Assembly (NCBI GenBank): GCA_020846005.1
Contig: JADLEQ010000055.1
Coordinates: 1 to 64,000, forward strand
Reading direction: 5' to 3'
Source of the DNA: Polyangiaceae bacterium
GTDB lineage: Bacteria; Myxococcota_A; Polyangia; Polyangiales; Polyangiaceae
DNA: 64,000 bases
The position numbers were made by a program, and so were the translations under genes. Under the pieces are notes generated by a model that saw only the letters and a list, made by a program, of their open reading frames with translations, did no database searches and was not told the DNA's origin. Of this stretch, positions 1 through 53,500 are shown one piece after another (position 1 is the stretch's first letter; every line of letters starts with the position of its first letter).

Positions 1-36
1 CCTCTCGCCCTCCCTCTCGCCCTCCCTCTCGCCCTC
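1..36. repeat. 12-bp pyrimidine-rich tandem repeat, cut by window edge
   Basis: Three perfect copies of CCTCTCGCCCTC occupy the first 36 bases, and degenerate CT-rich sequence continues to about base 90. One strand is almost purely pyrimidine. The array starts at the window boundary, so its real length is unknown. It lies just beyond the stop codon of the leftward AarF-like gene. No coding function is supported. Confidence 0.75.
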
Positions 37-90
37 CCTCCTCGCCCTCGCCCCCCCTCCGCCCTCGCTCTCCCCCTCCCCTTCCCCCCA

Positions 91-1573: not shown

Positions 1574-3841
1574 GTGACCCGACCGACCCCACCCGCCTCG
1601 ACCACCGCCCCGCCCGCCCCGCCCGGTGCGCGGGTCGCGCGCGCGATCGCGGAGATCCCAGTCGACGAGCTGCTTCGCGCCGGTGGGGGCGTGAGCCCGT
1701 CCGCGCGTGCGGTCCCGCCGCCCGAGGCGCTGGCGGAGATGCTGGGCGGGCTGGCGCTGGCGCCGGGCAGCCGCGTGCTCGAGGTCGGCACGGGGACGGG
1801 GTACGTAGCGGCGGTGCTGTCGCGCCTGGCGGGCGCCGTCTTCACGCTGGAGCAGGATCCGGCGCTCGCGCAGGCCGCGCGGGACCGGCTCGCCGCGTTC
1901 GGCTGTGGGTCGGTGAGCGTCGCGCACGGCGACGGCTGGCGCGGCTGGCCGGAGCACGGACCGTACGACGCCGTGCTGGTGTGCCGGCTCGCGACGGAGG
2001 TGCCGCACGCGCTCCTCGCCCAGCTCGCCCCGGGCGGGTCGCTCGTGCTGCCCGTGGGCACCGATCCGCTCGACGCCCGCCTCGTGTGCTTCACCAAGGG
2101 CACCGACGGGCGGTGCGCGAGTCGGGAGCTCGGGAGTGTCCGCCTCGCGAGCGCGCTCGGCGACACGCTGGTGGGGATGGGCGTGCTGGCGCGGCCCGAG
2201 ATCGAGCGCGCGGCCCACGCCGCCCACGAGCACGGCGTCAAGCTGGGCGACGAACTGCTCCGACACACGCGCGCCGAGGCGACCGACATCTACCGGGCGC
2301 TCGCGCTCCAGCGCGGGATCGGCTTCGGCACGTTCGACGACATGATGGCCGACGCAGATCCGCTCCTCATGCGAGGGGTGCCGCGGCGCTTCCTCGAGCA
2401 TAACCAGGTGATCCCGGTGAAGAAGGAGGCCGGCATCCTGCGCGTCGCGACGAGCGACCCCGACGCCGCCTCCGCGGAGCTCTCCAAGGCGTTCCCCGGA
2501 GCGACGCTCGACCTCTGGCTCGTCACGCCGACGGATTTCGGGCGCCTGTGGAGCGCGCTCGAGCTAGCGGGCGCCGTCACCACGCCGAGGTCGGCGGGTG
2601 CCGCGAGCACGCCGCGAGGCCACGACCTGCTCGGCCGAGCCGGCGAGCTCGACGCGAGGTTCGTGGCGCTGTTCGACGCCATGCTCCTCGACGCGATCGG
2701 CGAGCGGGCGAGCGACGTGCACCTCGAGCGCTACGGCGACCACGTGCGGCTGCGCCTGCGCATCGACGGTGAGCTCCGCGACGTGTCGCGCTACGAGCTC
2801 TCGCCCGTCGATCTCGTCGGGGTCGTCAACGTCATCAAGATCCGCGCGAACCTCGACATCGCCGAGCGCCGCCTGCCCCAGGGCGGGCGGATCGAGCTCC
2901 GCGCGGGTGGGAGCGTGTACGACCTGCGAGTCCAGACGCAGCCCGCGCTCCACGGAGAGCACGTGGTGATCCGGCTCCTGCCGCAGAACGTCCACCTCCT
3001 CACCATCGAGGAGCTCGGCCTGCCGCCGCGGATCTCCAGCGACTACCGCCGGCTGCTCCAGAGCCCGGCGGGCCTCGTGCTCGTCGTGGGGCCGACGGGC
3101 TCGGGGAAGTCCACGACGCTCTACGCCGGCCTGCAGGTGCTCGCGAGCGACACCACGCGGAAGGTGATCACCGTCGAGGACCCGATCGAGTACTCGATCG
3201 CCGGCGTACAGCAGACGCAGGTGCACGGCGGGATCGGCTTCGCGTTCGCCGACGCCATGCGCGCCTTCGTCCGCCAAGATCCAGACGTGATCCTGGTCGG
3301 CGAGATCCGTGACGCCGAGACGGCGCTCGAGGCGCTCCGCGCGTCGCAGACGGGCCACGTCGTCCTCTCGACGCTCCACTCGAACGACGCGGTGGACGCC
3401 GTGCAGCGCCTCTTCGATCTCGGCATGCACCCGAACAGCATCTCCAGCGAGCTGCTCGCGGTGGTCGCGCAGCGGCTGGCCAAGCGCGTGTGCGAGGGGT
3501 GCCGCGTCGAGGTGCAGCCGGACGCGAGCGTGCTCGCCGAGCTCTACCCCGGCGGCGCGCCCGCGGACTTTCGCTGCTGGGCGGGCCAGGGGTGCGCTCG
3601 GTGCAGCGGCCGCGGGACGCACGGGCGGATCGCGGCGGTCGAGTACCTCCGCCTGGGCGCCGAGGTGCGCGACGCGATCGCCCACCACCCGCCGCTCGAC
3701 GAGCTGCGGAGGCTGGCGATCCGCTCCGGGCTCGTCACGATGCGGGACTCGGCGATCACGCTCGTCCGGGGCGGCACGGTGCCGCTCACGGAGCTGCCAC
3801 GCATCCTGCCCGCCGAGCGCATGGCGGGGGAGCGCGGCTGA
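1574..3841 (+). CDS. PCMT-like methyltransferase fused to GspE/PilB-type ATPase
   Basis: This 755-residue protein joins two normally separate modules. Residues about 20-215 resemble protein-L-isoaspartate O-methyltransferase, with the SAM-binding EVGTGTG at 70-76. A type II secretion ATPase N-terminal (MshEN-like) region follows at about 235-335. The ATPase core has Walker A GPTGSGKST at 506-514, Walker B/Asp-box DPDVILVGEIRD near 567, and the tetracysteine zinc site C640-x2-C643 and C674-x2-C677. The core is therefore complete and probably active as the motor of a type II/IV pilus-like system. The GTG at 1574 is chosen because it leaves a short Pro-rich leader before the PCMT core. An ATG at 1466 is possible but adds low-complexity sequence overlapping the divergent promoter region. 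Whether the methyltransferase half is active is unknown. Confidence 0.87.
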   Translation: MTRPTPPASTTAPPAPPGARVARAIAEIPVDELLRAGGGVSPSARAVPPPEALAEMLGGLALAPGSRVLEVGTGTGYVAAVLSRLAGAVFTLEQDPALAQAARDRLAAFGCGSVSVAHGDGWRGWPEHGPYDAVLVCRLATEVPHALLAQLAPGGSLVLPVGTDPLDARLVCFTKGTDGRCASRELGSVRLASALGDTLVGMGVLARPEIERAAHAAHEHGVKLGDELLRHTRAEATDIYRALALQRGIGFGTFDDMMADADPLLMRGVPRRFLEHNQVIPVKKEAGILRVATSDPDAASAELSKAFPGATLDLWLVTPTDFGRLWSALELAGAVTTPRSAGAASTPRGHDLLGRAGELDARFVALFDAMLLDAIGERASDVHLERYGDHVRLRLRIDGELRDVSRYELSPVDLVGVVNVIKIRANLDIAERRLPQGGRIELRAGGSVYDLRVQTQPALHGEHVVIRLLPQNVHLLTIEELGLPPRISSDYRRLLQSPAGLVLVVGPTGSGKSTTLYAGLQVLASDTTRKVITVEDPIEYSIAGVQQTQVHGGIGFAFADAMRAFVRQDPDVILVGEIRDAETALEALRASQTGHVVLSTLHSNDAVDAVQRLFDLGMHPNSISSELLAVVAQRLAKRVCEGCRVEVQPDASVLAELYPGGAPADFRCWAGQGCARCSGRGTHGRIAAVEYLRLGAEVRDAIAHHPPLDELRRLAIRSGLVTMRDSAITLVRGGTVPLTELPRILPAERMAGERG

Positions 3842-3851
3842 AGGGGTCCGC

Positions 3852-4343
3852 ATGCAGCAACGTCTCGTCCCGATGAGCTTCCTCACCACCGCCGGCTGGG
3901 TCATGGGCACGCTGCACGTCCCGGGGTCGAGCCGGCTGGTCGACTTCCTGGACCACTGCCGCGAGTTCGTCCCGCTGACGGACGCGCGACTCGAGGCCCA
4001 GTCGGAGGCGCTCGCGTTCTTCGGGTTGCGCCGCCGCGCGATCGTCGCCGCGATCCCCCCGGCGACGGAGACCCTGGCGAGCGCGCAAGCGACGCAGCGG
4101 ACCGGAGAGCACGAGGTGTGGTGCCTGCTCCGCTGGGGGAGCGCGCAGGGGCGCCTCGAGGTGCCCGCCGGGACGCGAGTCTCGGACTACCTCGCGAAGC
4201 ACTCCGGCTGGCTCGTGCTCCGCGCTGCGCGGCTGCACCTGCGCGACCCGTGGTCGCTCCAGCCGATCGACCGTGAGGAGCCGACGGTCCTGCTCGGGCC
4301 GGAGCACGTGGTAGGCGCCACCGAGCGCTCCACGGCGCGGTGA
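3852..4343 (+). CDS. Small protein with two copies of one beta-rich module
   Basis: This gene starts 10 bases after the PCMT-GspE fusion, so the two are probably co-transcribed. The 163-residue product has no signal peptide or membrane segment. It contains an internal duplication: residues 19-47 and 100-128 align without gaps over 29 positions with 11 identities (pattern G-x-L-x-V-P, then R, D-x-L and a closing A-R-L). From memory this resembles short DUF6812-like modules, but I cannot confirm that. Its position suggests a partner or regulator of the upstream ATPase. The function is unknown. Confidence 0.8.
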   Translation: MQQRLVPMSFLTTAGWVMGTLHVPGSSRLVDFLDHCREFVPLTDARLEAQSEALAFFGLRRRAIVAAIPPATETLASAQATQRTGEHEVWCLLRWGSAQGRLEVPAGTRVSDYLAKHSGWLVLRAARLHLRDPWSLQPIDREEPTVLLGPEHVVGATERSTAR

Positions 4344-4404: not shown

Positions 4405-6822
4405 ATGCCGCCCCTCGGCGAGACCTCGCCGGTGAACTTGCCGCCGGATCCCGGGCGCCTCCTCACCCTGCCGGTCCAGGGGATGACCTGCGCCGCCTGC
4501 GCGCTCCGGCTGGAGAAGGTGCTCGGCCGCGTGGAGGGGGTGACGGAGGCGAGCGTGAGCTTCGCGACGGAGCAGGCGGCGGTGCGCCTCGATCCCGCTC
4601 GCGCCTCGATCGCCGACGTGGCCGCCGCGGTGGGGCGGGCGGGGTTCCGCGTGCCGCTGGCGACCGCGCGCCTGCGACTGCAAGGGCTCACCTGCGCAAG
4701 CTGCGTCGAGCGCGTCGAGCGCGCGCTCCGGCGCGTACCCGGCGTCGCCTCGGCCCAGGTGAACCTAGCGTCGGAGTCGGCGAGCGTGGCGTCGCCGCCG
4801 GGCGCCGTCGAGCTGGCCGCGCTCCTCGCCGCGGTGGAGCGCGCCGGCTATCGCGCGGAGCCGGCGCCCTCGAGCCGCGAGGAGCGCGAGGCGCTCGAGC
4901 GAGAGGAGCGGGCGCGTGAGCGGCGAGAGCTCGGGCTCCTCGCGCTCTCGGCGGCGCTCACCGCGCCGCTCGTGTTGCCGATGCTCGCGCACCCGCTCGG
5001 CGTGGCGCTGCACCTCCCCGGCTGGGTGGAGCTCGCGCTCGCGACACCCGTGCAGCTCGTCGCGGGTGCGCGGTTCTTCCGCGGCGCGTGGGCCGCCCTG
5101 CGAGCCGGGAGCGCGAACATGGACGTGCTCGTGTCGCTCGGCACGTCGGCTGCGTTCGGGCTCTCGGTGGTGGAGCTCGCCCGGGGCGGGCCGCTCTACT
5201 TCGAGGCCGCGGCCGCGGTGCTGACGTTCGTCCGGTTCGGCAAGTACCTGGAGGGGCGCGCCAAGCGCAGCACGACCAGCGCGATCCGCGCGCTCGTCGC
5301 CCTGCGGCCGGAGGTGGCGCGAGTCCGGCGAGGGGACGCCGAGCTCGAGATCCCGGTCGAGGCCGTGGGCCGCGGCGACCTCGTCGTCGTGCGCCCGGGC
5401 GAGCGCGTGCCCGTCGACGGCGCCATCGTGCACGGGTCGAGCACGCTCGACGAGTCGCTCATCACCGGCGAGAGCGCCCCGGTGCCCCGCGAGCCGGGGG
5501 CCGAGGTGACGGGCGGCTCGATCAACGGCGAGGGCTTGCTCGAGATCGAGGCGACCCGCGTGGGCGACGACTCGCGCCTCGCGCGCATCGTGCGGTTGGT
5601 CCAGGACGCCCAGGCGACGAAGGCGCCCATCCAGCGGCTGGTCGATCGAGTCGCGGGCGTGTTCGTGCCGGCGGTGATCCTGGTGGCGTCCGTCGCGCTC
5701 GGGGCGTGGTGGCTCGCCGGCGCGGCGCCGGAGCGAGCGATCGTGATCGCGGTGTCGGTGCTCGTCATCGCGTGCCCTTGCGCGCTCGGCCTGGCGACGC
5801 CGGCCGCGCTGCTCGTGGGCACGGGCGCGGCGGCGCGCGCGGGCGTTCTGATCCGGGACGCCGTCGCGCTCGAGCGCGCGCACGCGGTCGACACCGTGGT
5901 GTTCGACAAGACGGGGACCCTCACCGAGGGGCGCCCGGCGGTCAGCGCCGTGATCGCGGCGCCCGGCAGCGCGGACGCGGTGCTCGCGCTCGCCGCCTCG
6001 GCCCAGCGCGGCAGCGAACACCCACTCGGTCGCGCTCTCGTCCGCGAGGCGGCGGAGCGCGCGCTGGTGACCGTCGCCCCATCGGAGCTCCGCGCTGTAC
6101 CCGGTCGGGGCATCGAGGCCACCGTGGAGGGGCGAGGGGTCCGCGTGGGGAGCCCCCGCTGGATGGGCGAGCTCGGCGTCGACCTGGGCGCGCTGGCGGA
6201 GCGGGCGGCCGCGCTCGGGGCGGACGGGGCTACGGTGGTGTGGGTGGCCGAGGCCGATCACGCGATCGGTGCGATCGCGCTGCGCGATCGGCTCCGACCC
6301 ACGGCCGCGGAGGCGGTCCGCCGGTTGTCGGCGGCCGGCGTGCGCACCGTCCTCCTCACCGGGGATCACGAGGCCGCCGCGCGCGTGGTGGCGTCGGAGC
6401 TCGGGATCGAGCGCGTGCTCGCGCAGGTGCTCCCGGAGGACAAAGCCCGGCACGTGCGCGAGCTCCGCGCGGAGGGGCGCGTCGTGGCGATGGTCGGGGA
6501 CGGCGTGAACGACGCCCCGGCGCTCGCCGCGGCGGACGTGGGCTTCGCGATGGGCGAGGGCACCGACGTGGCAGTGGAGACAGCGGGCATCACCCTGATG
6601 CGGAGCGAGCCGCTGCTCGTCTTTGCCGCGCTCTCGGTGTCGCGGGCGACCACGAGCAAGATCCGGCAGAATCTCTTCTGGGCGTTCGCGTACAACGTCC
6701 TGTGCATCCCGCTGGCGGCGCTCGGGCTGCTCACCCCGATGCTGGCGGGCGCGGCGATGGCGGCCTCGAGCGTGAGCGTTGTGGCGAACGCCCTGCTGCT
6801 GCGACGCTGGCGCCCCCGCTGA
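4405..6822 (+). CDS. copA: Copper-exporting P1B-type ATPase (CopA)
   Basis: This 805-residue inner-membrane pump uses ATP to expel Cu(I). Two heavy-metal-associated domains sit at the N-terminus, with GMTCAAC (C29, C32) and GLTCASC (C97, C100). Further motifs are the actuator TGES, the transmembrane metal site C457-P-C459, the phosphorylation motif DKTGTLTEG with D501, the SEHPLG motif of the nucleotide-binding domain, and GDGVNDAPAL from residue 698. The last helices carry YN and MxxSS, which mark Cu(I)-specific (P1B-1) pumps. Length is normal for a two-domain CopA. The start is set by a GGAGGG ribosome binding site. The copZ chaperone follows directly. No copper-responsive regulator is adjacent. 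Confidence 0.96.
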   Translation: MPPLGETSPVNLPPDPGRLLTLPVQGMTCAACALRLEKVLGRVEGVTEASVSFATEQAAVRLDPARASIADVAAAVGRAGFRVPLATARLRLQGLTCASCVERVERALRRVPGVASAQVNLASESASVASPPGAVELAALLAAVERAGYRAEPAPSSREEREALEREERARERRELGLLALSAALTAPLVLPMLAHPLGVALHLPGWVELALATPVQLVAGARFFRGAWAALRAGSANMDVLVSLGTSAAFGLSVVELARGGPLYFEAAAAVLTFVRFGKYLEGRAKRSTTSAIRALVALRPEVARVRRGDAELEIPVEAVGRGDLVVVRPGERVPVDGAIVHGSSTLDESLITGESAPVPREPGAEVTGGSINGEGLLEIEATRVGDDSRLARIVRLVQDAQATKAPIQRLVDRVAGVFVPAVILVASVALGAWWLAGAAPERAIVIAVSVLVIACPCALGLATPAALLVGTGAAARAGVLIRDAVALERAHAVDTVVFDKTGTLTEGRPAVSAVIAAPGSADAVLALAASAQRGSEHPLGRALVREAAERALVTVAPSELRAVPGRGIEATVEGRGVRVGSPRWMGELGVDLGALAERAAALGADGATVVWVAEADHAIGAIALRDRLRPTAAEAVRRLSAAGVRTVLLTGDHEAAARVVASELGIERVLAQVLPEDKARHVRELRAEGRVVAMVGDGVNDAPALAAADVGFAMGEGTDVAVETAGITLMRSEPLLVFAALSVSRATTSKIRQNLFWAFAYNVLCIPLAALGLLTPMLAGAAMAASSVSVVANALLLRRWRPR

Positions 6823-6889
6823 CCTCCGGGCGCCGGCCGGGGCAGGACGGACTTGCGCGGCGGCGCGCCGCGCGCCAGGAGCGATCCCC

Positions 6890-7096
6890 ATGGAAGCGAC
6901 GTACTCGGTGAAGGGCATGACCTGCGGCGGCTGCGCCAGCGCCGTCACGCGCGCGCTCGAGGCGCTCGGGCACGATGTGGTCGTGCGCGTCTCGCTCGAG
7001 CGGGCCCAGGCGACGATCGAGGGCCAGCACGACGAGCGCGCCGTGCAGCGGGCGATCGAGGACGCCGGCTTCGACTTCGGCGGTCGGACAGGCTGA
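6890..7096 (+). CDS. copZ: Copper chaperone (CopZ-like HMA domain protein)
   Basis: This 68-residue single heavy-metal-associated domain carries GMTCGGC near the N-terminus, the Cu(I)-binding CxxC. Such proteins shuttle Cu(I) in the cytosol to CopA. The ATG at 6890 is supported by AGGAG nine bases upstream and by the canonical domain start; the longer open frame upstream only adds Cys/Ala-rich sequence. It lies 67 bases after copA and probably shares its transcript. The fold and metal motif make the assignment strong. The partner is inferred from position. Confidence 0.92.
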   Translation: MEATYSVKGMTCGGCASAVTRALEALGHDVVVRVSLERAQATIEGQHDERAVQRAIEDAGFDFGGRTG

Positions 7097-8859: not shown

Positions 8860-11800
8860 ATGATACGTACCCGCTCGTCCGCCGCGCTCCTCGCCGCCGC
8901 TGGCGGCACGCTCGCGCTCGCCTCGCTCGGGGCTTGCGAGTCGGCCCTGGATCCCTCCGGCGGCCGCCCCGCAGGGCTGGGCGAGACCCGCCGCGCGGGC
9001 GGCCCGCGCGTCGTCTGGGACGTGAAGCACCAGCCGCTCCCCGAGATCCCCCTCCCGAACGACCAGGCCACCCGCCTCGATCCCGGCTCGCCGACGGGCC
9101 GCCGCGTCAACATCTCGCTCGACGCGGCGCGCACCCGCTACGAGCGCAAGACCCGCGCGATCTTCAACCGCCTCGACGGCTTCGGCGCGTACGCGCCGAT
9201 CACCGTGCGCTTCGACGCTCCGCTCGATCTGCCGGGGGTCCTCGCCCGCCACCGGAACGACGACTTCCGCGACGACGCGTTCTACCTGCTCAACGTCGAT
9301 CGGAGCTGCAAGCGCTTCGGCGAGGAGATCGCGCTCGACGTGGGCCGCGGCCGCTTCCCCATCATCCTGATGTCGCGGAGCGAGCGCGGGACGGATCCTG
9401 AGGCGCCCAACGGGTTCTTCCTGGACGAGAGCGACAACAAGATGTTCGGCTTCGATCCGGAGGGCGAGGCGCTGACGCTCCTCTTCAAGGACTACACGGA
9501 GGATCGCAACCGGGACGGAGTCCTCCAGCCGAGTGAGGACCGCAACCAGGACGGCGTGATGGACGAGGCGAATTTCCTCGATCCGCACGCCTGCGACGCG
9601 GTGCCCGAGTCGACGCCCGAGCACGATCGATGCGTCGCCGACCACCTCCTCTCCTGGTACGAGCGCGCCTCCAACACCCTGATCCTGCGCCCGGTGTGGC
9701 CGCTCGAGGAGCGCTGCACCCACGCGGTGGTGCTGACGAAGCGGCTGCGAGGCGCAGACGGCGAGGCCGTCGAGAGCCCGTTCCCCGCCGTGCAGGCGCC
9801 GGATCAGATCGGCGCGCTCGAGCCGGTGGGCGCGCTCCTCGGCCGCTACGGGTTGTCGAAGGGTGACGTGGCGTTCGCCTGGTCGTACACCGTCGGCACG
9901 ATGACGCGCGACCTGGAGGGGCTCCGCGCGGGGCTCTACGGGCAGGGGCCCATGGCGCGCCTCGCGAAGGAGTTCCCGGTCTCCGGGTTCCGCGTGCGGA
10001 CGCGCAACGAGTGGCGCGAGATCGGGAGCGATCCGCCGCTCACCGCGGGCGGCGACTCCCGCGTGCTGCCGGGCGGGTGCGCGGGCGCGGCGTGGGCCGC
10101 GCTGGCGAGCACGATCGAGGGCGACAAGCAGATCTGCGGCGGGTACGCCGACTTCGCGAGCGTCGGCGGGCTCTTCGCCGGGGAGTTCGAGGCGCCGAAC
10201 CTCCTCGTCGACCAGGACGGCCACGCCACGCCGGCGTATCCGGCGGACGAAGACGAGGTGTGGGACGTCGACGTGGGGGCGGGGCGGGCGGTCTACGATC
10301 GCGGGAAGGTGACGTTCTTCTGCGCCCTCCCGCGCGAGGACGCGCGGCCCGCCGGCGTCACCTGCGAGCCAGGGAATCCCGAGGGCAAGCCGTGGTGCAA
10401 GCCCTATCCGGTCGCCTTCTTCGCGCACGGCTACGGGAGCTTCAAGGGTGAGTTCGTGCTGCACGCCGGCCGCCACGCGCAGATGGGCTTCGCCGCGTGC
10501 GGGCTCGACAGCTTCGGCCACGGGCGCTCGATCGTGCTCAACCCGCGCTGCGAAGGGAACCTCGACTACCTCGCCGGCAAGGGCTTGCTCGCCGCCTACG
10601 GCGTCCCCGAGCTCGTCACGATGATCTTCTACGGCCGGGACCGGGACCTCAACAACGACGGCTGCCCGGACGGGGGCGCGGATCAGTGGACCGCGAACCT
10701 CTTTCACACACGCGACGTGGTCCGACAGTCGGTGTTCGAGGAGATGCAGTTCGTGCGCATCCTGCACGCGGTCGACGGCCAGCAGCGCGACGCGTCGGGG
10801 AACGTCCTCGGCGACGTCGACGGCGACGGCGAGCCGGACATCGGCGGGCGCAAGTCGATCACGGCCGCGTGGGGGATCTCGCTCGGCGGCCAGCTCACCG
10901 GCGTGCTCGCCGGAGCGGAGCCCACGCTCGACGCCGTCTCGCCCAACGCCGTCGGCGCCGGCCTGACGGACGTCGCCGTGCGCCTCGGCGAGGGCGGCCT
11001 CGCGGAGGCGGTGATGTTGCCCGTCCAGGGGCCGATCATCGTCGGGTGCTTGCCGACGGACGGGCACCAGGTCCCGCTGACGAGCGGCGAGGGCGGCGCG
11101 TCGTGCCTGCCGCGGGTCGACGGCCAGCAGGGCGTCGCGGGGCCGCAGGTGGCTGGGGAGCTCCAGCTCGCGTGGTACGGGCACGACAACGCGCGCCTCG
11201 CGGTGCGCGCCTTCGCCAAGGTGCCCGGCGTCGCGGTCGGGGACACCGTCCGCGTCGAGAACGTCGACAAGGGCCTCGCCGCCGCGTCCAGGCTCGGTCC
11301 GCGCGGCTGGGCGCGCGTGAGCATCGCCGCGGACGCGCTCTGGCCCATCGCGCGGCGCGGCCTGCTCGGCTTCGCGGACGACGAGAACGACGCCCGCGCC
11401 GCGCCGGACACCACCGCCCTCGGCGATCGGATCCGGGTGACGGTGGTCGACGGCGGCTCGGGGGCCGTGAAGGCCACGGTCGACACCTGGCAGTGGGACG
11501 TGGAGTTCCAGCACACGATCTACCCGGCGGGCCAGCCGCTGGTGGCGATGCAGGAGGGCCTCGGTTACCCGCGCAACACCGTGGACTTCCGCCGCTTCTA
11601 CGGCATCGCCCAGCACGCCGTGGCGCCCGCGGACCCGGCGGTGTGGTCGCGCAGGTACACCGACGATCCCATCCTCGCGCCGTACGATCCCGCTTGGTGG
11701 CCAGGGCGCGCTCACGTCCTCGTGATGCCGACGATCGGCGACTCGCAGGTGCCGACGGCGACGGGCGTCGCGCTCGGCCGCACCTCCGGGCTGCTCGGCT

Positions 11801-12495
11801 CCTGGGATCGCGACCCGGCGCGCTTCGCGCCGGAGCACGGCTGGCGGGAGCTCTTCACGCCCGACGCGCGCTACGGTGTGTCCGTCGAGCAGTGGCTCAC
11901 CGACAACTGGGTCGTCGAGGGCGACTGGCGCCTGCAGCGATGGGCCTCGCACGGAGTGAACCCGAGCACGCTCTTCGACCCGGACGACACCTCGGACGGC
12001 GCGGCGGAATTCTCGTGTCTGCACTCGTACGACTGGTCGGCGGACAACGGGGAGTTCCACTGCCCCGCCGCGATCGACGACACCGCGACGACCTTCGACG
12101 TGCCGCGCCCGGGGCCGGGGCAGGCGATGCGGCAGGACCGCCCGCGTGGCGACGGATCGTACGACGCCCTCCGGATCCCGCTGCTCCGCCCCTCGGGCCA
12201 GCACGGGATCTACAACCCGCAGCCGTTCCGCGCCTTCGACACGGACGCCTACATGGTGCACTTCACCGCGCGCTTCATGGCGACCCGTGGCGGCGACGTG
12301 AGCCACGAGCCCGGCTGCGACTGCGGCTACGCCGAGCTCCCGCGCTTCGAGGTCGGCGGCGCCGAGGCGTGGCCCGGGGTCGACGGCGTCGCCGCGTGCC
12401 CGACCGACGACCCGACCTACGGCAAGCGGTGCTCAGCGGAGTGCACGGCCGCGTGGGGGATCGTGCCGCTCCCGCCGGCCGTGTGCGCGCCGTGA
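8860..12495 (+). CDS. Large lipoprotein with alpha/beta-hydrolase-like core
   Basis: This 1,211-residue exported lipoprotein has its lipobox at LGAC (C26). An aspartate-rich, calcium-loop-like segment (DRNRDG...DRNQDG) lies near residues 214-240. A hydrolase-like region follows, with FFAHGYGS near 520 and the nucleophile-elbow-like G-I-S674-L-G-G. The C-terminal 60 residues contain paired cysteines (CDCGY, CPTDD, CSAEC). The gene has a clear ribosome binding site (GAAGGAG) and sits 17 bases after the barrel gene, so both probably act together at the outer membrane. It is much longer than ordinary hydrolases. The substrate is unknown and the catalytic Asp/His cannot be placed with confidence. 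It could also be a non-catalytic surface protein. Confidence 0.82.
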   Translation: MIRTRSSAALLAAAGGTLALASLGACESALDPSGGRPAGLGETRRAGGPRVVWDVKHQPLPEIPLPNDQATRLDPGSPTGRRVNISLDAARTRYERKTRAIFNRLDGFGAYAPITVRFDAPLDLPGVLARHRNDDFRDDAFYLLNVDRSCKRFGEEIALDVGRGRFPIILMSRSERGTDPEAPNGFFLDESDNKMFGFDPEGEALTLLFKDYTEDRNRDGVLQPSEDRNQDGVMDEANFLDPHACDAVPESTPEHDRCVADHLLSWYERASNTLILRPVWPLEERCTHAVVLTKRLRGADGEAVESPFPAVQAPDQIGALEPVGALLGRYGLSKGDVAFAWSYTVGTMTRDLEGLRAGLYGQGPMARLAKEFPVSGFRVRTRNEWREIGSDPPLTAGGDSRVLPGGCAGAAWAALASTIEGDKQICGGYADFASVGGLFAGEFEAPNLLVDQDGHATPAYPADEDEVWDVDVGAGRAVYDRGKVTFFCALPREDARPAGVTCEPGNPEGKPWCKPYPVAFFAHGYGSFKGEFVLHAGRHAQMGFAACGLDSFGHGRSIVLNPRCEGNLDYLAGKGLLAAYGVPELVTMIFYGRDRDLNNDGCPDGGADQWTANLFHTRDVVRQSVFEEMQFVRILHAVDGQQRDASGNVLGDVDGDGEPDIGGRKSITAAWGISLGGQLTGVLAGAEPTLDAVSPNAVGAGLTDVAVRLGEGGLAEAVMLPVQGPIIVGCLPTDGHQVPLTSGEGGASCLPRVDGQQGVAGPQVAGELQLAWYGHDNARLAVRAFAKVPGVAVGDTVRVENVDKGLAAASRLGPRGWARVSIAADALWPIARRGLLGFADDENDARAAPDTTALGDRIRVTVVDGGSGAVKATVDTWQWDVEFQHTIYPAGQPLVAMQEGLGYPRNTVDFRRFYGIAQHAVAPADPAVWSRRYTDDPILAPYDPAWWPGRAHVLVMPTIGDSQVPTATGVALGRTSGLLGSWDRDPARFAPEHGWRELFTPDARYGVSVEQWLTDNWVVEGDWRLQRWASHGVNPSTLFDPDDTSDGAAEFSCLHSYDWSADNGEFHCPAAIDDTATTFDVPRPGPGQAMRQDRPRGDGSYDALRIPLLRPSGQHGIYNPQPFRAFDTDAYMVHFTARFMATRGGDVSHEPGCDCGYAELPRFEVGGAEAWPGVDGVAACPTDDPTYGKRCSAECTAAWGIVPLPPAVCAP

Positions 12496-38823: not shown

Positions 38824-40527
38824 TCAATCCGACATGGTGACGCGCAGGATCTCCTCGGGCGTCGTGACGCCCTCCATGACCTTCCGGATGCCGCTCATCC
38901 GCAGGGTGATCATCCCGCCCTTGATGGCGGCCGCCTTGAGCTCGGCGGACGAAGCACCCTGGAGCACGCGCTCCTTCAGCTCATCCTTGAAGCGCATGAC
39001 CTCGTAGAGCGCGACCCGGCCCTTGTAGCCTGTCCCGTTGCAGGTGGTGCAGCCGGCGCCCTTGAAGACCTTGGCGGTCGCGGCTTGCTCCTCCGTCATG
39101 CCGAGGTCGAGCTTCGCCTGGTGATCGAAGGGGACCTCCGCTCGACACTCGCCGCACACGCGCCGCGCGAGACGCTGGGCGAGCACCAGGTTGACGCTGG
39201 CGGTGATGAGGAACGGCTCGACGCCCATGTTGAGGAGGCGCGAGATGGTGGCGGGGGCGTCGTTCGTGTGGAGCGTCGAGAGCACGAGGTGGCCCGTGAG
39301 CGCCGCCTTGACAGCGATCTCCGCCGTCTCGAAGTCACGGATCTCGCCCACCATGATGATGTCCGGGTCCTGCCGGAGGAAGGCGCGGAGGGCCATCGCG
39401 AAGTTCAGGCCGATCTCGTCGTGCATCTGCACTTGGTTGATGCCGTGCAGGTTGTACTCGACGGGATCCTCGGCCGTGCTGATGTTCACGTCCGTCTTGT
39501 TGAGGTCGCTCAGCGCCGAGTAGAGCGTCGTCGTCTTGCCGGAGCCGGTCGGGCCCGTCACGAGCACCATCCCCCACGGCTGCTCGATCGCCCAGCGGAA
39601 GTCCTCGAGCGGCTTGATGTCGAAGCCGAGCTTCGTCATGTCGAGCTGGAGGTTGCTCTTGTCGAGGAGGCGGAGCACCACCTTCTCGCCCCAGAGCGTC
39701 GGCAGGACGGAGACGCGAAAGTCCATCTCGCGGCCCTTGCCGAGCTTCAGCTTGATGCGACCGTCCTGCGGGAGGCGGCGCTCGGCGATGTCGAGCTGGC
39801 TCATGATCTTGAGCCGGCTGACCAGCGCGTTCTTCAGCTTGAGCGGCGGGTTCATCTCCTCGTGGAGCACGCCGTCGATGCGGTAACGCACACGGAGACG
39901 CTTCTCGTAGGCCTCGACGTGGATGTCGCTCGCGCCCTTCTTGATGGCGTTCAAGAGCAGGACGTTGACGAGACGGACGACCGGCGCGTCCTCGCTCGCC
40001 CGCTCGAGCTCCATGACGTTCACGTCGTCGCCCTCGGCGGCGAAGTCGATGTCTTCGTCGTCGAGCTGGAACTCCGCCATCACGTCCTCGTAGGACGGGC
40101 CCCCGGCGTTCAATCGCTCGATCGTGGCGAGGATCGACGTCTCGCTGGCGACGACCGGCTCGACGTTGTAACCGGTGAGGAACTTGATGTCGTCGATGGC
40201 GTGGAGGTTGGTCGGGTCCGCCATGGCGACGGTGAGCGACGACCCGTTGCGAGAGACGGGGAGGATCTTGTGCTTCTCGCACACGTCGCGCGCGACCAGC
40301 TTCGCGACCTCGGGATCGACGTCGTACTCGTCGAGGTTGATGCTCGGGAGCCGGTACTGCGACGACAGGAAGCCGGTGATGTCGCCGTCGCTGATGTAGC
40401 CGAGCTTCGCGAGGGCGTAGGAGAGGTTCTTCCCTGACTTGCGCTGCTCCTCCTGGGCCTGGCGAAGCTGCTGGAGGCTGATGAGCTTCTCCCTGACGAG
40501 GAGCTCTCCGAGACGTGTGTTGCTCAT
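38824..40527 (-). CDS. pilB: Type IV pilus extension ATPase PilB
   Basis: This 567-residue ATPase powers pilus assembly. It has an N-terminal MshEN-like c-di-GMP-binding-type region (LGELLVREKLISLQQL, LGYISDGDITGFLS) and a second linker domain. The core has Walker A GPTGSGKTT with K331, AEDPVEYNLHGINQVQ, PDIIMVGEIRDFET and THTLHTND-like LSTLHTNDA. The zinc tetracysteine motif (CGEC and CTTC) is present. The ATG at 40527 begins MSNTRLGELL. The open frame upstream adds only basic sequence. The minisatellite lies 78 bases upstream of the start, and a TATGCT hexamer at 40571-40576 may be its -10. Confidence 0.96.
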   Translation of the reverse strand: MSNTRLGELLVREKLISLQQLRQAQEEQRKSGKNLSYALAKLGYISDGDITGFLSSQYRLPSINLDEYDVDPEVAKLVARDVCEKHKILPVSRNGSSLTVAMADPTNLHAIDDIKFLTGYNVEPVVASETSILATIERLNAGGPSYEDVMAEFQLDDEDIDFAAEGDDVNVMELERASEDAPVVRLVNVLLLNAIKKGASDIHVEAYEKRLRVRYRIDGVLHEEMNPPLKLKNALVSRLKIMSQLDIAERRLPQDGRIKLKLGKGREMDFRVSVLPTLWGEKVVLRLLDKSNLQLDMTKLGFDIKPLEDFRWAIEQPWGMVLVTGPTGSGKTTTLYSALSDLNKTDVNISTAEDPVEYNLHGINQVQMHDEIGLNFAMALRAFLRQDPDIIMVGEIRDFETAEIAVKAALTGHLVLSTLHTNDAPATISRLLNMGVEPFLITASVNLVLAQRLARRVCGECRAEVPFDHQAKLDLGMTEEQAATAKVFKGAGCTTCNGTGYKGRVALYEVMRFKDELKERVLQGASSAELKAAAIKGGMITLRMSGIRKVMEGVTTPEEILRVTMSD

Positions 40528-40570
40528 GCGTTTGCCGTGGGCGGGGCGAAGGTCGCCGGAAAGGAGGAGA

Positions 40571-40576
40571 AGCATA
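40571..40576 (-). promoter_or_regulatory. Possible -10 (TATGCT) of pilB
   Basis: On the minus strand TATGCT lies 43 bases before the pilB ATG, between the gene and the tandem repeat array. The leader would be about 36 bases and contains no strong Shine-Dalgarno sequence. The -35 region would lie inside or at the edge of the repeats. Confidence 0.35.
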
Positions 40577-46935: not shown

Positions 46936-47579
46936 CTCGACACCTCGCAGGCGCTCGCGCCGGGCGCGCCGCCGCCCACCAACGAGGCGGCCTTCGCCCG
47001 TGCGCTGGTGAGCGCGCGCTCGAGGCGCTCGGGGCCGCCGGTCGCGGGAACCGGGCCGCCGAGGACGATCGCCACCCGCGAGAACGGCCACGGCACCTCG
47101 AAGCTCTCCCACCGCGCCCGGACGCCGAAGCGGCGCGAGGCTGCGACCGCGACGGGGATCAGCGCCGCCCGGCCCAGGCGCGCCGCGGCGAGCGCCCCCG
47201 GCTTCACCCGCCCGGCAGGTCCGCGCGGCCCGTCCACCGCGAACGCGGCGTCCTCTCCAGCGCGGAGGCGCCGGACCAGCGCGCGCAGGCCGGCGGCGCC
47301 GCCTCGCGTCGACGAGCCGCGGGCCACACCGAGCCCGAACGCCGCGAGAAGCTCCGCCTGGAGCGCGCCGTCGGCCGACCAGCTCACGAGCGCGTGCGTC
47401 TGCCGGGGACGCCCGACGGCGAGGAGCGCGAGCTGCTGCGCGTGGAGGAACGCGAGGACCCGCGGGCCCGCGAGCGCACGAGGATCGCACACGACGGTGA
47501 CGCGCAGCGACGCGACCCAGGCCCGGAGGAACCACGCGAGCGCCCACGCGCCAGCGCGCCATGCCGCCACGCGGCTCAC
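46932..47579 (-). CDS. DUF374-type lysophospholipid acyltransferase family protein
   Basis: This 215-residue membrane-associated protein has VVCDPRAL, LAFLHAQQLALL (the H of the family's HxxQD-like start), RGSSTRGGAAGLRALVRRLRAG and the signature FAVDGPRGPAGRVKPGALAAA. DUF374 proteins are related to LpxL-type lipid acyltransferases. The acyl donor and acceptor are unknown. It begins with GTG at 47579, overlapping the stop codon of the giant TPR gene (GTGA), and its own stop overlaps the aminotransferase TTG. The coupling implies one transcript and coordinated amounts of the three proteins. Confidence 0.88.
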   Translation of the reverse strand: MSRVAAWRAGAWALAWFLRAWVASLRVTVVCDPRALAGPRVLAFLHAQQLALLAVGRPRQTHALVSWSADGALQAELLAAFGLGVARGSSTRGGAAGLRALVRRLRAGEDAAFAVDGPRGPAGRVKPGALAAARLGRAALIPVAVAASRRFGVRARWESFEVPWPFSRVAIVLGGPVPATGGPERLERALTSARAKAASLVGGGAPGASACEVSS

Positions 47580-50500
47580 GCCTTGAGCTCGGCGATCCGC
47601 GCCTTCGCCTTCTCCATCGAGGCGTCGGTCTGCACCGCGCGCTCGAACTGCTGGATCGCCTTCGGCTTCTCGCCGAGCGCCGCGTGGATCTCGCCGAGCT
47701 GGAAGAAGACCTCGGCCTTCGTGATCGGGCTCTTGTCGTCGAGCTTCTGGAGGAGGAGGGCGCGGTACATCTGCTGCGCCTTCGCGTGATCTCCGACCGA
47801 GAACGCGACCTCCCCGAGCTGCTTCAGCACGCCGACGTTCCCCGGCTCGATGCGGAACGCCTTGTCCAGCTCCTCGAGCGCGCCAGCGGAGTTGCCGTCC
47901 GCGAGCTTGGCGCCCGCGAGGCGGCGGTGGATGTCGGCCAGCTCCTTGGAGCGCTTCCCGCCGTACGACGCCACGATCCGCTCCAGCACCTCCGCTGCCT
48001 CCTTGCCGCGGCCCGAAGCGCTGAGAGCGTCCGAGAGGGCGAGCAGGAGCTCGCGGTCCTCGGGTACGAGCGCCGACGCCTTTGCCAGCAAGTCCGCCGC
48101 CGCGGCCGGATCACCACGCCGCTCCGTCTGGATCGCCGCCGCGGCGCGGAGGAGCTCGACCTTCTTCTGGGTAGCCTCCGCGGCCTCGGCGTCCCCCACC
48201 ACGAGCTGGCTGAGCTCCGCCCACGCGCCCATCGACTCGTAAAGCGCGCGGAGACGGCCGCGGACCGCGGCGTCCCGCTCGTCGTGCCGCAGCCCGCGCT
48301 CGAGCCCCCGCGCCGCGCTCTCACGCTCGCCGAGCTTCTCGTACTCGTCGGCGAGGGTCATCGCCAGCCCGAGCGCGTCGCGTCCCTCGGAGAGATCCAG
48401 CAACCGCTCGAGGACGCGGGCCGCGTCGGCGTGCTCCGCGCCGGCCTGATGGAGGCGCGCCAGCGACTCGAGCGCTCCGCGGTGGGCCGCGCTCCGCCCA
48501 AGCACGGCCTGGTAGGTCGCGATCGCACGTGCGCGGTCGTTCAGCCGAGACTCGTAGACCTCGCCCAGACGAACCTGGAAGGCGAGCTCTGCCTCGAGAT
48601 CACCTCGCATCTCCGCCGCTCGGATCTGACCCGCGAGGAGCTCGGCGAGGTCCTCGTCGCGCCCGAGCTTCTCGAACAGCGCGCTGAGCTCGACCACCGC
48701 CTCGGCTCGCGCGGGATCGTCCTCGATCACGGCACGGAGGAGCTCGATCGCGGCAGAGGCGTCATCGAAACGGCTCGCGTGCAGGCGCGCGAGCTCGAGG
48801 CGGAGGGCGGAGCGCTCCCCCACGACGTCGGCGCGGTCGGTGAGACGCTCCAGGAGTCGGCCGAGCTCCGTCCACTTCGCGGTCGACTCGAACAGCGCCC
48901 GGAGCGCCCCGGCCGCGGCCGCGTCCGTCGGGTCGTCCTCGAAGAGCTGCTCGAACAGCGCGATCGCCTTGCCCGGATCGTTGAGCTCGTCCCGCGCGAG
49001 CTCGGCCGCGGAGCGCCGGAGCGCGCGTACCGCGCCGCCGTCAGCGCCCAGATCGATCTGCCGAACCAGCAGCGAGAAGGTCTCCTTGGCGTCGCCGGCC
49101 TTCCGGCGGAGGGTGGTGAGCTCGGCCAGCGCCCAGGCGTTCGCGTCGTCGCGCTCGAGGAGCTCACGCAGCAGCTTCTCTGCGAGCGCGTCGTCTTTCA
49201 CCTCGCCCGCGAGCTCCCGCGCGCTCTGGTACAGGGTGTCGCGCATGCCCTCGTCGGACTGCAAGCGGGCGCGGCGGCGCAGCGTCTCCACGAGATCGCG
49301 CTCGCGGCCGTCGACCCGTTGGAGCTGCTCGACGAGGACGAGCGTCTCATCCGACTCGGGGGTGAGCTCCAAGGCCCGCACCAGCGCCGCCTCGGCCCGC
49401 CTCGGATCGCCGACTCGATCCCGCAACCAGATCGCGACCCGGACCGTGAGCTCGCGGCCGAGCTCCGCCGGGAGATCCGTCCTCTTCTCCAGCGCGTCAC
49501 CGAGCGAGCGAGCGGCGCTCTCCCAGCCGCCGACGATGGGCGCCAGACGCTCGATCTCGTCCAGTACGGCGAGATCCGTCGGGTCGTCGGCGAGGCTCGC
49601 CTCGAGCACCCGCAGCGCGCCGCCGGCGTCCGAGCACTCGCTCTCCAGGACGCGCGCGAGGTGCTTGCGGCGCTCCACGCGCTCCGCGGCGTCACGCGCC
49701 CAGGCGACTCGCTTCTCGAACAGGCGCGCGAGCGCGTCCGTCCGCCCGCGGGCTCGATACACGCCCTCGAGGATCTCGGCGGCCTCGTCGCGGTGATCGC
49801 GATCGTCGGTGAGACGCTCGAGCGCCTGGAGCGCGCCATCGTGCGCAGCGTCGCGATCGAGGGCCTCGCGCAGGGACGACACGCCGCGAGCGGGCTCGCC
49901 GAGCGACTCGATCTGCAGTACGGCCAGGCGGTGGAAGAGGCCGGCGAGCTCCGCGGCGTCGCTCGTCACGGCCAGGCGCCGCTCGAGCACCTCCGCGATC
50001 TTCGCCGGCTCCCCCAGCGCCACGCGGAGCCGGTCGAGCGCCGCGAGGAGGTCGGCGCGATCACCGACGAGCTCGAGCGCGTGCTCGTAGGCCACCACCG
50101 CGCGCCCGGGGTCGCCCAGGCGCTCCTCGGCGACCCGGCCGAGCCGACTCCAGAGATCGCAGCCGAGCTCCGGATCGAAGGTCGCACCGGCGCGCTCCGC
50201 GAGCGCGTCAGCGTACGCCGGCCAGGCGCTGCACGCGGCCGCCAGGCGCTCGATGTCCGCGTGGAGATCGTGCGCCTCGGGACGCTCGGGGAGCGCGCGC
50301 AGCAGCGCGCCGAGCGCGGCGCGCGCGTCCCCCACGCGCGCCTCCAGCACCTCGGCGATGGCGCGCAGCGTCTCGGCGCGGACGGACGGCTCCGTCTCGG
50401 CGGTGAGCCGGAGCTCGAGCACCGCAGCCAGATCCGCCCAACGCTCGGCCACGCGGAGCACCGGGACCAGGATCCCGGCGACAGCCTCGCGCAGATCCTC

Positions 50501-53500
50501 GTGCTGATCGCCGATCGCGCGGACGGCCGCGATGGCGGCCGGGTCGCCCGGCGCATCCTCCAGCACGAGGCGATACGCCTCGAGGGCCTCTTCGTGCGAG
50601 CTCAAGCGCTCGTCGAGCAGCCCGCCGATCGCGCGGCGCAGCTCCGCCCTCCGCGCCGGCTCCGCCGCGCTCGACGCCTGCAGGCGGAGGTTTTCCAGCA
50701 GCGCCGGCCAGTCTTCGCCCGCCCGGTAGAGGGCCTCGAGGCGGCGGAGGACCTCGGGGTCGCCCGGCCGGACGCCGAGCGCGTGGGTGAGCGCCTCGAC
50801 GGCGCGCTCGCGCTCCTCGAGGCGCGTCTCCAGCACCGTCGCCGAAGCGACGAGGAGCTGGTAGCGAAGGTCGGCGTCGTCCTCGCCGCAGCGCTCCACG
50901 CGCTGCTCGTACAGCTCGACGAGGCGTGCGGGCTCCTGGCGCTGCTCATAGAGATCGATGAGGCAGTCGAGCGTGAAGTCGCTCTCCGGATCCAGCTCGA
51001 GCGCCTTCTCGTAGGCCTCTACGGCGCCCGCCGGATCCTCGAGCATGTCGCGGCGTGCCTCGCCCACGCGCCGCCAGAGGCTCGCGCGCTCGTCGTCCGA
51101 CGGCACCAGCTCCGCGAGCGCCGCGAGCGCCGCCACGAGCGCCGGCCAATCGCTGAGCAGCGTGGCGAGCCGGTCCACTTCGCGCAGCGGCTGCTCCTCG
51201 GACGGATCGGCCGCGTGGAGGGCCTGGTACGCGACGAGCGCGCGGCGCGGGTCGTCCCGGCGCCGGTCGTGGACGCTGGCGAGCTTCGCCAGGAGCTCCC
51301 GGCGGCTGCCGAGGTCGGGGTGGTCCTCGAGCGCGGCGTCGTACGTCTCGGCCAGCTCGTCCCACGCGCTGGTGCGTTCGACGAGCCGCTCGTAGTCGCC
51401 GCACGCCTCGGAGTCATCCGGGTCGAGAGAGACGGCGATGGAGAGGGCGCTCCGCGCGCGCTCGAGATCGTGACCGCGCTCCTCCCACAGCGCGGCGGTC
51501 TCGCGGAGGACGACCACCTTCTCGCTGGCGTCCGTCGCGAGCGCGTAGCGGTCCTCGTTCAGGCGGACGAGGTGCCGCCAGTCGTCGAGTGACGCGTAGA
51601 GCGGGCGCAGGATCTCCACGACCCGCTCCTTGTGCTCCTCGACCTCACGCAGCGCCTCGAGCTCCGCGAGGGCCTCCCGGTGGTGGGGGAGCTCGCGCAC
51701 GATCTCCTCTAGACTGTCGATCGCGCGCCCGGGCTCGCCGAGCTCGCCTCGCTGGAGCCTCGCCAGCGCGATCCGGTACTCTGCGCGCACCTCGGGAGAG
51801 GCGCCGGACTCCGCCCGCCGCTCAAGCAGCTCCGCCAGATCCGGAAAGCGAGAGCGCGCGCGGTACAGCTCGGTGAGGGCGTCGAGCACACGCGCGTCGG
51901 AGTCATCGACGTCGAGCGCGGCGCGGTAAGTCACGATCGCGGCGTCCGGATCTCCGAGCGGGCCGCGCTCCAGGCCAGCGATGACGTGGAGCGTCTCGAG
52001 CCGATCGGCAGGCTCGAACCGGTGGTCGAGTGCGGCCCGGTGGAGCAGGACCCGCTCCGCGTGCGCGCCCTGGCGGACGAGGATGCCGTCCACGGCGGAG
52101 AACAGCGCGCGGTCCTCGGGAGCGAACGCCAGCGCCCGCCGGTCGAACACGAGCGCCCGTTCGAGGTCCCCGAGCTGCTCGAAGAGCTCCCCCGCCCGAC
52201 GCGCCAGGCGCGCCGAGGTCTCGTCGTCGCCGTCGACGCCCTCGATCTCGCGCGCGTAGATCTCCGCCAGCTTCCGCTCGGCCCCGGACACCCGCGCGAT
52301 GCGCTCGAGCTCCGCGATTGCGTCCTCGCTCGCGCGGTCCTCGTGGAGGAGGAGCGCCATGGTTTCGAGCGCGCCGGTGTAGTCCTCCTTCTGCTCCTCC
52401 TGGATCTTCGCGAGTCGCGTCAGGAGCTCCGCTCGCTCGTCCGGGTCCTGGCTGTGCGCCAGGCGCGCGCGGAGGGTCTCCACGACCTTGGGGAAGTCCG
52501 CCCGGAGGAGGTAGACGGGCTCGAGCAGCTCCGCCGCGCGGGCGCGCGTCTCCGTCTCGCCCCCGGCGGTGAGCAGGCGCTCGAGCTCGGCGATGGCCGG
52601 CTCGAACTGGCGGTCCATCGTGAGCGCGAGGTCGAGCTCGTCGAAGGCTTGGGCAACGTCGCCCAGCTCGGCGATCGACACCCGCGCGATCTTGACGTGC
52701 AGGAGCGCGGCTTCGCCCACGCCTGCGTCGAGCTGGCGCCGGTGGAGCTCCACGCGATCGCCGTGTCGTCCCTCGGCGGCATAGAGCTTCTCGAGGGCGT
52801 CGACCGCCTCGGGCTCGACCGCGAGATCGAGGATCGCCTCGTAGACCTCGATGGCCCGGGACCGGCTCGCGAGCGGGCCGGCCAGGAGCGCGCCGCGCCG
52901 GTACATCAGCGCCTTCTTCTCGGCGTCGGTCTCGGCGGCGTCCGTCCGGCGCTCCAGGATGGCGAGGAGACGTTCGGGGTCGCCCGCCTCCTCGTGGATG
53001 CGCTCGAGCGCGACCAGGGCGCGCGGGTCGTCGGAACGGAGCTCGAGCGCCTTCTCGTACCACTCGCGGGCGCGCTCGCGATCCCCGAGCTCTTCGCGCG
53101 CGAGCTCTGCGACCCGCAGGGTGACGCGCAGCTGCAGCTCGTCCTGGAAGATGTCCTGCGCGATCGAGGCGAGGAGGTCCGCCTGGGCCCTCCGGCTGCT
53201 GGTCGCCGCGGCGAGGCGCTCGAGGTGCTCGAGCCACTCCTCGAGCTCGCCCCCGCCCGCGGCGTCCCGCACGCCTCGCTCGGCCAGCCCGTACGCGCGG
53301 CTGGCGTCCCCGAGCGGACCCTCCGCGACGCGCAGCGCCTGCTGGAGACCCGCCAGGCGCGAGGCCGGGTCGTCCGCGGTGTCGACCTCGATGACGAGGA
53401 CCCGGAGGAGGCGCTCGTTGTCGCCGTCGGCCTCGTAGATCGGGTGGAGGATCTCGGCGGCCTGGCGCCGGGTCGTCGGGTCCTCGGCACCGAGGAGCGC

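Follow-up and report, generated by a model that had tools for sequence, protein, structure and literature searches.

A conserved bacterial fusion of a PIMT-like domain, lacking the isoaspartate-binding loop, to a PilB/GspE-class motor ATPase

What does a protein-repair-type methyltransferase do at the front of a pilus/secretion-type motor? The question is raised by one gene near the start of a 64,000-nucleotide stretch of Polyangiaceae DNA, which was analysed as a whole and is called the window here. A sequence-only reading had described this gene as a PCMT-like domain in frame with a complete GspE/PilB-type ATPase, and had suggested that the methyltransferase marks or senses a substrate or partner of the motor. 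We investigated whether the fusion is real, what became of its methyltransferase, and to which class of motor it belongs. The features of the gene are as follows.

1574..3841, plus strand: fusion gene PCMT-like / MshEN / T2SSE ATPase, 755 aa, with GTG as the presumed start codon
1616..2149, plus strand: PIMT-like methyltransferase domain, residues ~15-192 (PF01135; AF2 pLDDT 92; PDB match 3lbf_A)
1709..1723, plus strand: former isoAsp-binding T-I-S loop, here A-V-P-P-P, residues 46-50 (alignment; PMC11522691, PMC8275801)
1781..1801, plus strand: SAM motif I EVGTGTG, residues 70-76, intact
2150..2575, plus strand: MshEN / N1 domain, residues ~193-334 (PF05157; PilF-GSPIIB/MshE structures; motif table)
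2651..3808, plus strand: T2SSE (PilB/GspE-class) ATPase core, residues ~360-745 (PF00437; PilB 5tsh_A)
3089..3112, plus strand: Walker A GPTGSGKS, residues 506-513
3491..3604, plus strand: tetracysteine zinc motif C640/C643/C674/C677

Profile searches against Pfam revealed both expected halves far above their cut-offs within the single open frame 1574-3841: PCMT (PF01135) at residues 50-190 with 115.1 bits (cut-off 20.3), and T2SSE (PF00437) at residues 363-741 with 363.2 bits (cut-off 24.9). The EVGTGTG motif was found at residues 70-76, where the sequence-only reading had placed it. Its two-halves architecture proved correct as far as it went, both halves being present; what it had overlooked was an MshEN domain between them (PF05157, residues 259-330, 44.0 bits, cut-off 23.1). 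The AlphaFold2 model of residues 1-345 (33 sequences) reached a mean pLDDT of 92.2 and a pTM of 0.83. In comparisons with the PDB, residues 15-192 matched protein-L-isoaspartate methyltransferases (3lbf_A, Z 24.6, 172 aligned, rmsd 2.6; 4l7v, Z 24.0); for residues 192-334 the matches were the PilF-GSPIIB and MshE N-domains (Z ~16.5). Residues 360-753 of the full-length model (pLDDT 85.7) matched PilB and GspE, with the ATPase core aligning to PilB 5tsh_A at Z 36.0 (373 aligned). HMMs and the AlphaFold/PDB comparison concur, and clearly indicate three domains in one protein. In the model, the PIMT fold passes directly into MshEN: only a few residues separate the end of its last strand (~189) from the start of the first MshEN helix (195).

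Two ordinary genes merged by a frameshift or assembly error near 2200-2350 could give the same picture, and the position of the window at a contig start is the single point in favour of this. GC3 of the fusion ORF was 0.91-0.97 in each 300-base block over its whole length; this uniformity leaves no break in composition and no change of frame around 2200-2350, and the coding signal runs evenly across the junction. The same fusion occurs in many independent assemblies, including the single-contig genome G436 (8.05 Mb), and is therefore not an assembly artefact. We regard an artefact as next to impossible. Likewise, an open frame, intact motifs and a conserved architecture agree with the earlier view that this is not a decayed pseudogene.

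We then asked how widely the architecture is distributed, since its absence from all relatives would have spoken against the fusion. The three-domain order was observed in at least 20 bacterial genomes, many of them relatives of the window's genome; because few candidates were scored per genome in each search, all fusion counts given here are lower bounds. Within the window's order (183 genomes), six genomes carried the fusion (G000, the window's own, and G056, G205, G209, G210, G312), and G196 carried the motor with the methyltransferase domain absent. The search of the window's class (317 genomes) gave G205, G056, G209 and G312 together with the frameshift-split copy of G210. In the latter, the frame change falls inside the ATPase part (L184 4911-7370 and 6277-7317), and reflects either a sequencing error or a recent pseudogene. 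No match to the fusion was found in the congener G001, nor in other searched members of the window's family.

More distant copies were also recovered. A GTDB contig scan added one copy (L102) in "Planctomycetota bacterium RX1_metabat.bin.42" (RX1 bin.42/G590); in the same class the fusion is also present in G601, and G593 and G594 hold the motor without the domain. In a phylum sample of 377 genomes, the architecture turned up in a further class, where family f38 (probably Bradymonadales) has 18 such genes of two types. Five of these are type A, with an intact motor (G436, G374, G366, G466 and G331, the last with its methyltransferase part split by a frame change), and 13 are type B, with a divergent motor (L228 8695-10929, L233 6988-9405, L229 8077-10374 and ten other loci). 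A type A-class gene and a type B gene were both seen in six f38 genomes. The long ORFs L041-L054 (660-1100 aa) were considered as further fusions and rejected, having no T2SSE core. Canonical PIMTs lie inside open frames of 800-1120 aa at L041, L044, L047, L048, L054 and L058, which are possibly other PIMT fusions.

Does the fused domain still repair isoaspartate? Thr60 and Ser62 hydrogen-bond isoAsp, and the S62A substitution abolishes Drosophila PIMT activity (PMC11522691); the proposed human isoAsp site consists of residues 57-59 and 212-216 (PMC8275801). In the T-x-S loop of 114 stand-alone PIMTs, Thr was present in 114/114 and Ser in 113/114; in the 24 fusions, Pro was found in 17 and an aligned Ser in one (G056), the latter a product of shifted local alignment where the real motif is LPPP. 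The Thr-x-Ser isoAsp-binding loop is absent from all fusions, and reads A-V-P in the window copy. As the stand-alone PIMTs were collected by whole-domain searches and the SAM motif I pattern, and not by the loop, this contrast does not follow from how they were chosen.

A working PIMT attached to the motor, repairing aged pilins or motor subunits, was the activity implied by the sequence-only reading, and would be in keeping with PF01135 membership and an intact motif I; however, the Thr/Ser substrate site is gone in every fusion, a loss which resembles the dead CI-PIMT and RPA2580 (PMC11522691), and the SAM loop is broken in several relatives. Furthermore, the domain scored below the PIMT equivalog cut-offs (107.5 bits against 159.05 for TIGR00080; 134.8 bits against 188 for PRK00312), and the window's genome encodes a separate canonical PIMT with GQTISQP at C85:64612. 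On its substrate-site residues a functional PIMT was rejected, and this part of the earlier reading was abandoned as very improbable. Judged from its residues, the fused domain is probably not a working PIMT; the loss of the substrate site, and of the SAM loop in several lineages, suggests that isoaspartate is no longer repaired.

The SAM pocket has a different history. All SAM motifs are kept in the window protein (G72, G74, G76, E93, D120). Across the 24 fusions, G72 and G76 were conserved in 24/24, the middle Gly in 12/24, and the Glu after beta2 in 22/24. The loop is broken in G056 (GEPSG), in G601 (LPAGSG) and in most type B copies, which read GTDTG and have also lost the GDG Asp. If the domain were still an active SAM-dependent methyltransferase, one that had acquired a substrate other than isoaspartate (e.g. 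a pilin, an adaptor or the motor), this would explain the intact SAM-binding residues of G000, G205 and L102 and the motif I of G209/G312, and PCMT-family enzymes of altered specificity (FxLD, ATP-grasp maturase methyltransferases) do score on the domain. Yet the domain was kept where the SAM loop was broken independently (G056, G601, most type B copies), no substrate emerges as a conserved gene neighbour, and pilin N-methylation is already covered by the bifunctional prepilin peptidase. We consider an active enzyme of this kind unlikely, though not negligible. The bifunctional prepilin peptidase with its A24_N domain was present in 5/5 fusion genomes tested, which makes prepilin N-methylation an unlikely substitute role; the fused domain as a replacement prepilin N-methylase was thus rejected. 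The earlier suggestion that the methyltransferase marks a substrate is possible for the window copy, given its intact SAM motifs, and is not favoured.

The motor part belongs to the T2SSE / type II-IV secretion ATPase superfamily, as indicated by PF00437 and the catalytic motifs. The window protein and all type A copies have intact Walker A, Walker B, Asp box, His box and four zinc Cys; in the window protein these include the Walker B Glu, in line with the sequence-only reading of intact catalytic and zinc motifs. The Walker A pattern GxxGxGK[ST] was found in 11/11 fused type A copies, 12/12 unfused members and 1/13 type B copies, with the cysteines kept in all 13 of the latter. Loss of Walker A in 12/13 suggests that type B is probably a pseudo-ATPase paralogue retaining the methyltransferase domain. 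The fusion protein scored below both motor equivalog cut-offs (PilB TIGR02538, 403.4 bits against 675.65; GspE TIGR02533, 411.9 bits against 630.25); the window's ordinary PilB (38824-40575) reached 796.9 bits on TIGR02538.

A c-di-GMP-binding MshEN domain contains two RLGxx..G..LxxxLxxQ motifs (PMC5013675). In the first motif of the window MshEN, ALGDTLVGMGVLARPEIERAAHAA, R is replaced by A, both late L are altered and Q is replaced by A; the second begins with K and has no central G. Control of the motor by c-di-GMP through MshEN was rejected as a candidate, the motif residues being missing, although weak or altered binding is conceivable.

Phylogenetic analyses placed both parts of the protein. 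A tree of 138 methyltransferase domains grouped the 24 from fusions in one clade, apart from the 114 stand-alone PIMTs (SH-aLRT 99). In ATPase-core trees, the fusions stood apart from PilB, GspE and PilT, and their subfamily, which holds fused and unfused members, was split from PilB/GspE with support of 100/100. By sequence, these motors make up a subfamily of their own beside PilB and GspE, in which the methyltransferase domain may be present or absent. Unfused members are common (G196, G350, G385, G593, G594 and others), and their existence means that in some lineages the motor does without the domain; as they are interspersed with fused members, a single fusion was followed by repeated loss, or movement, of the domain.

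Is the domain then an evolutionary remnant, hitch-hiking at the N-terminus with no function of its own? Common unfused members and variable motifs would fit this. Nei-Gojobori estimates of omega for the domain were, however, 0.10-0.34 in eight pairs, which indicates purifying selection, with several pairs showing faster change than in the motor core; the domain has been kept in three or more class-level groups, folds confidently (pLDDT 92), and is retained on the Walker-A-less type B paralogues. A remnant is improbable in our judgement.

The neighbourhood of the fusion gene in the window was also examined. Upstream, by sequence reading, lies a divergent ABC1/UbiB-type kinase ORF and then the contig end (~1.5 kb upstream). 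Beside this UbiB-like gene, at the contig start (window 1-90), there is a C/T-rich imperfect repeat, cctctcgccctccctctcgccc. Downstream features are as follows.

3852..4343, plus strand: DUF6812 protein (PF20660, 42.7 bits), starting 10 bases past the fusion stop
4405-7096, plus strand: heavy-metal P-type ATPase with two HMA-like CxxC motifs, then a small HMA/CopZ-like protein (sequence reading)

Co-transcription of the fusion and DUF6812 is probable in the window's genome only; as an obligate partner DUF6812 was discarded, since none of the other genomes examined has it beside the fusion. The locus itself has no pil or gsp gene context, and the ordinary pilT and pilB of the window are 34-37 kb from the fusion. 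Two other fusions have motor-type neighbours. In G056, the gene directly after the fusion (L069 7869-9509) encodes an MshEN-T2SSE ATPase, PilT-like by tree position; in RX1 bin.42, a PilT-like ATPase fused to PilZ and a second PilT-like ATPase adjoin the fusion (L102 4894-6285 and 6335-7687, both minus strand). The RX1 bin.42 genome holds ~20 T2SSE-type matches. Across fusion genomes of different groups, we found no shared neighbourhood and no shared pil/gsp context. These results point to an orphan motor, whose pilus/secretion assignment rests on homology only. Elsewhere in the window, we observed a 3779-aa ORF consisting mostly of TPR repeats (47576-58915, minus strand) and a 1211-aa putative lipoprotein with an LGACES motif and no Pfam match (8860-12495, plus strand).

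Taken together, we propose, with a probability of about 0.6, an alternative T4P/T2SS-type motor in which a PIMT fold was recruited N-terminally as a docking or regulatory module and lost isoAsp repair. The fusion protein would be an alternative, orphan motor ATPase of the PilB/GspE class, presumably hexameric, whose C-terminal core would use ATP hydrolysis to power a PilC/GspF-type platform, either in a type IV filament system or in a type II secretion machine. PilB of the type IVa pilus sits in a PilM socket (PMC11656802), and N1/MshEN is the likely docking site of such motors on PilM/GspL-type partners. In a single ancestral event, a PIMT would have been joined directly ahead of the N1 domain; its isoaspartyl site would then have been lost as Thr-x-Ser gave way mostly to x-x-Pro, and several lineages would have lost the SAM loop too. 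The resulting PIMT-derived cap, one per subunit, may recognise a partner or switch the motor on or off, with SAM/SAH possibly gating it where the pocket survives, as in the window copy. Precedent for a methyltransferase fold without its original chemistry comes from a SAM sensor whose orthologue is a methyltransferase (PMC11514484). Against a docking or regulatory module stand the intact SAM motifs of the window protein, unexpected if the fold alone mattered, the lack of a conserved pil/gsp neighbourhood, the absence of the domain from unfused members, and its evolution, in several pairs, at a faster rate than the core. The earlier idea that the methyltransferase may sense a partner of the motor is close to this preferred reading. 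In a further alternative, a metabolic sensor, SAM/SAH binding would itself gate docking or the ATPase, and in the probable Bradymonadales (predatory) a Walker-A-less sibling would mix with the motor or compete for the platform; we consider this rather doubtful.

With PilB, PilF and GspE (5tsh, 5oiu, 1p9r) the protein shares the ATPase core, N1/MshEN, and the catalytic and zinc motifs; it differs in forming a separate clade below the equivalog cut-offs, in its extra N-terminal PIMT, and in having no pil/gsp operon. With PIMT (PF01135; 3lbf, 4l7v, 1jg1) the window copy shares fold, topology and SAM motifs, whereas the fusion lacks the isoAsp-binding Thr/Ser, has a motor attached, and runs from its C-terminal strand straight into MshEN. 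Recombination of MshEN with many regulatory domains is common, and a survey of its partners lists REC, HD-GYP, CheA, CheX, cyclase and Ser/Thr kinase, with no methyltransferase (PMC5013675); the fusion differs in its methyltransferase partner and degraded c-di-GMP motif. We found no published description of a PCMT/MshEN/T2SSE architecture in the literature searched, consistent with the sequence-only reading, which knew of no such system. The earlier interpretation is supported in part: the evidence is for a conserved, previously undescribed architecture within a known motor superfamily, with a domain repurposed rather than repairing. This architecture defines a separate subfamily of PilB/GspE-class motors whose N-terminal module is new to the literature searched, and which offers a natural contrast among fused, unfused and Walker-A-less copies. 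Myxococcota are rich in unassigned MshEN proteins (M. xanthus has 22 MshEN genes; PMC5013675), and the subfamily gives a concrete handle on one such group.

Human PCMTD1 (CRL5-PCMTD1, 9oma) is likewise a larger protein that includes a PIMT domain, and one study saw no isoAsp activity for it (PMC11514484); unlike the fusion, it is eukaryotic and belongs to a cullin-5 ubiquitin ligase complex. The fusion also warns against reading a "PCMT" annotation without the Thr-x-Ser loop as protein repair. A further parallel is CI-PIMT of Paracoccus denitrificans complex I (8qby_t), likewise a PIMT paralogue without Thr/Ser recruited onto a molecular machine; lacking both residues, it is catalytically dead and serves as a structural subunit, for which stabilisation of closed complex I has been proposed (PMC11522691). 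CI-PIMT is, however, a separate subunit of a different machine and has lost its SAM contacts; the window copy shares the Thr/Ser loss of such dead structural PIMTs but keeps its SAM contacts. The fusion would thus be the second bacterial case, after CI-PIMT, of a PIMT without its repair site recruited onto a molecular machine.
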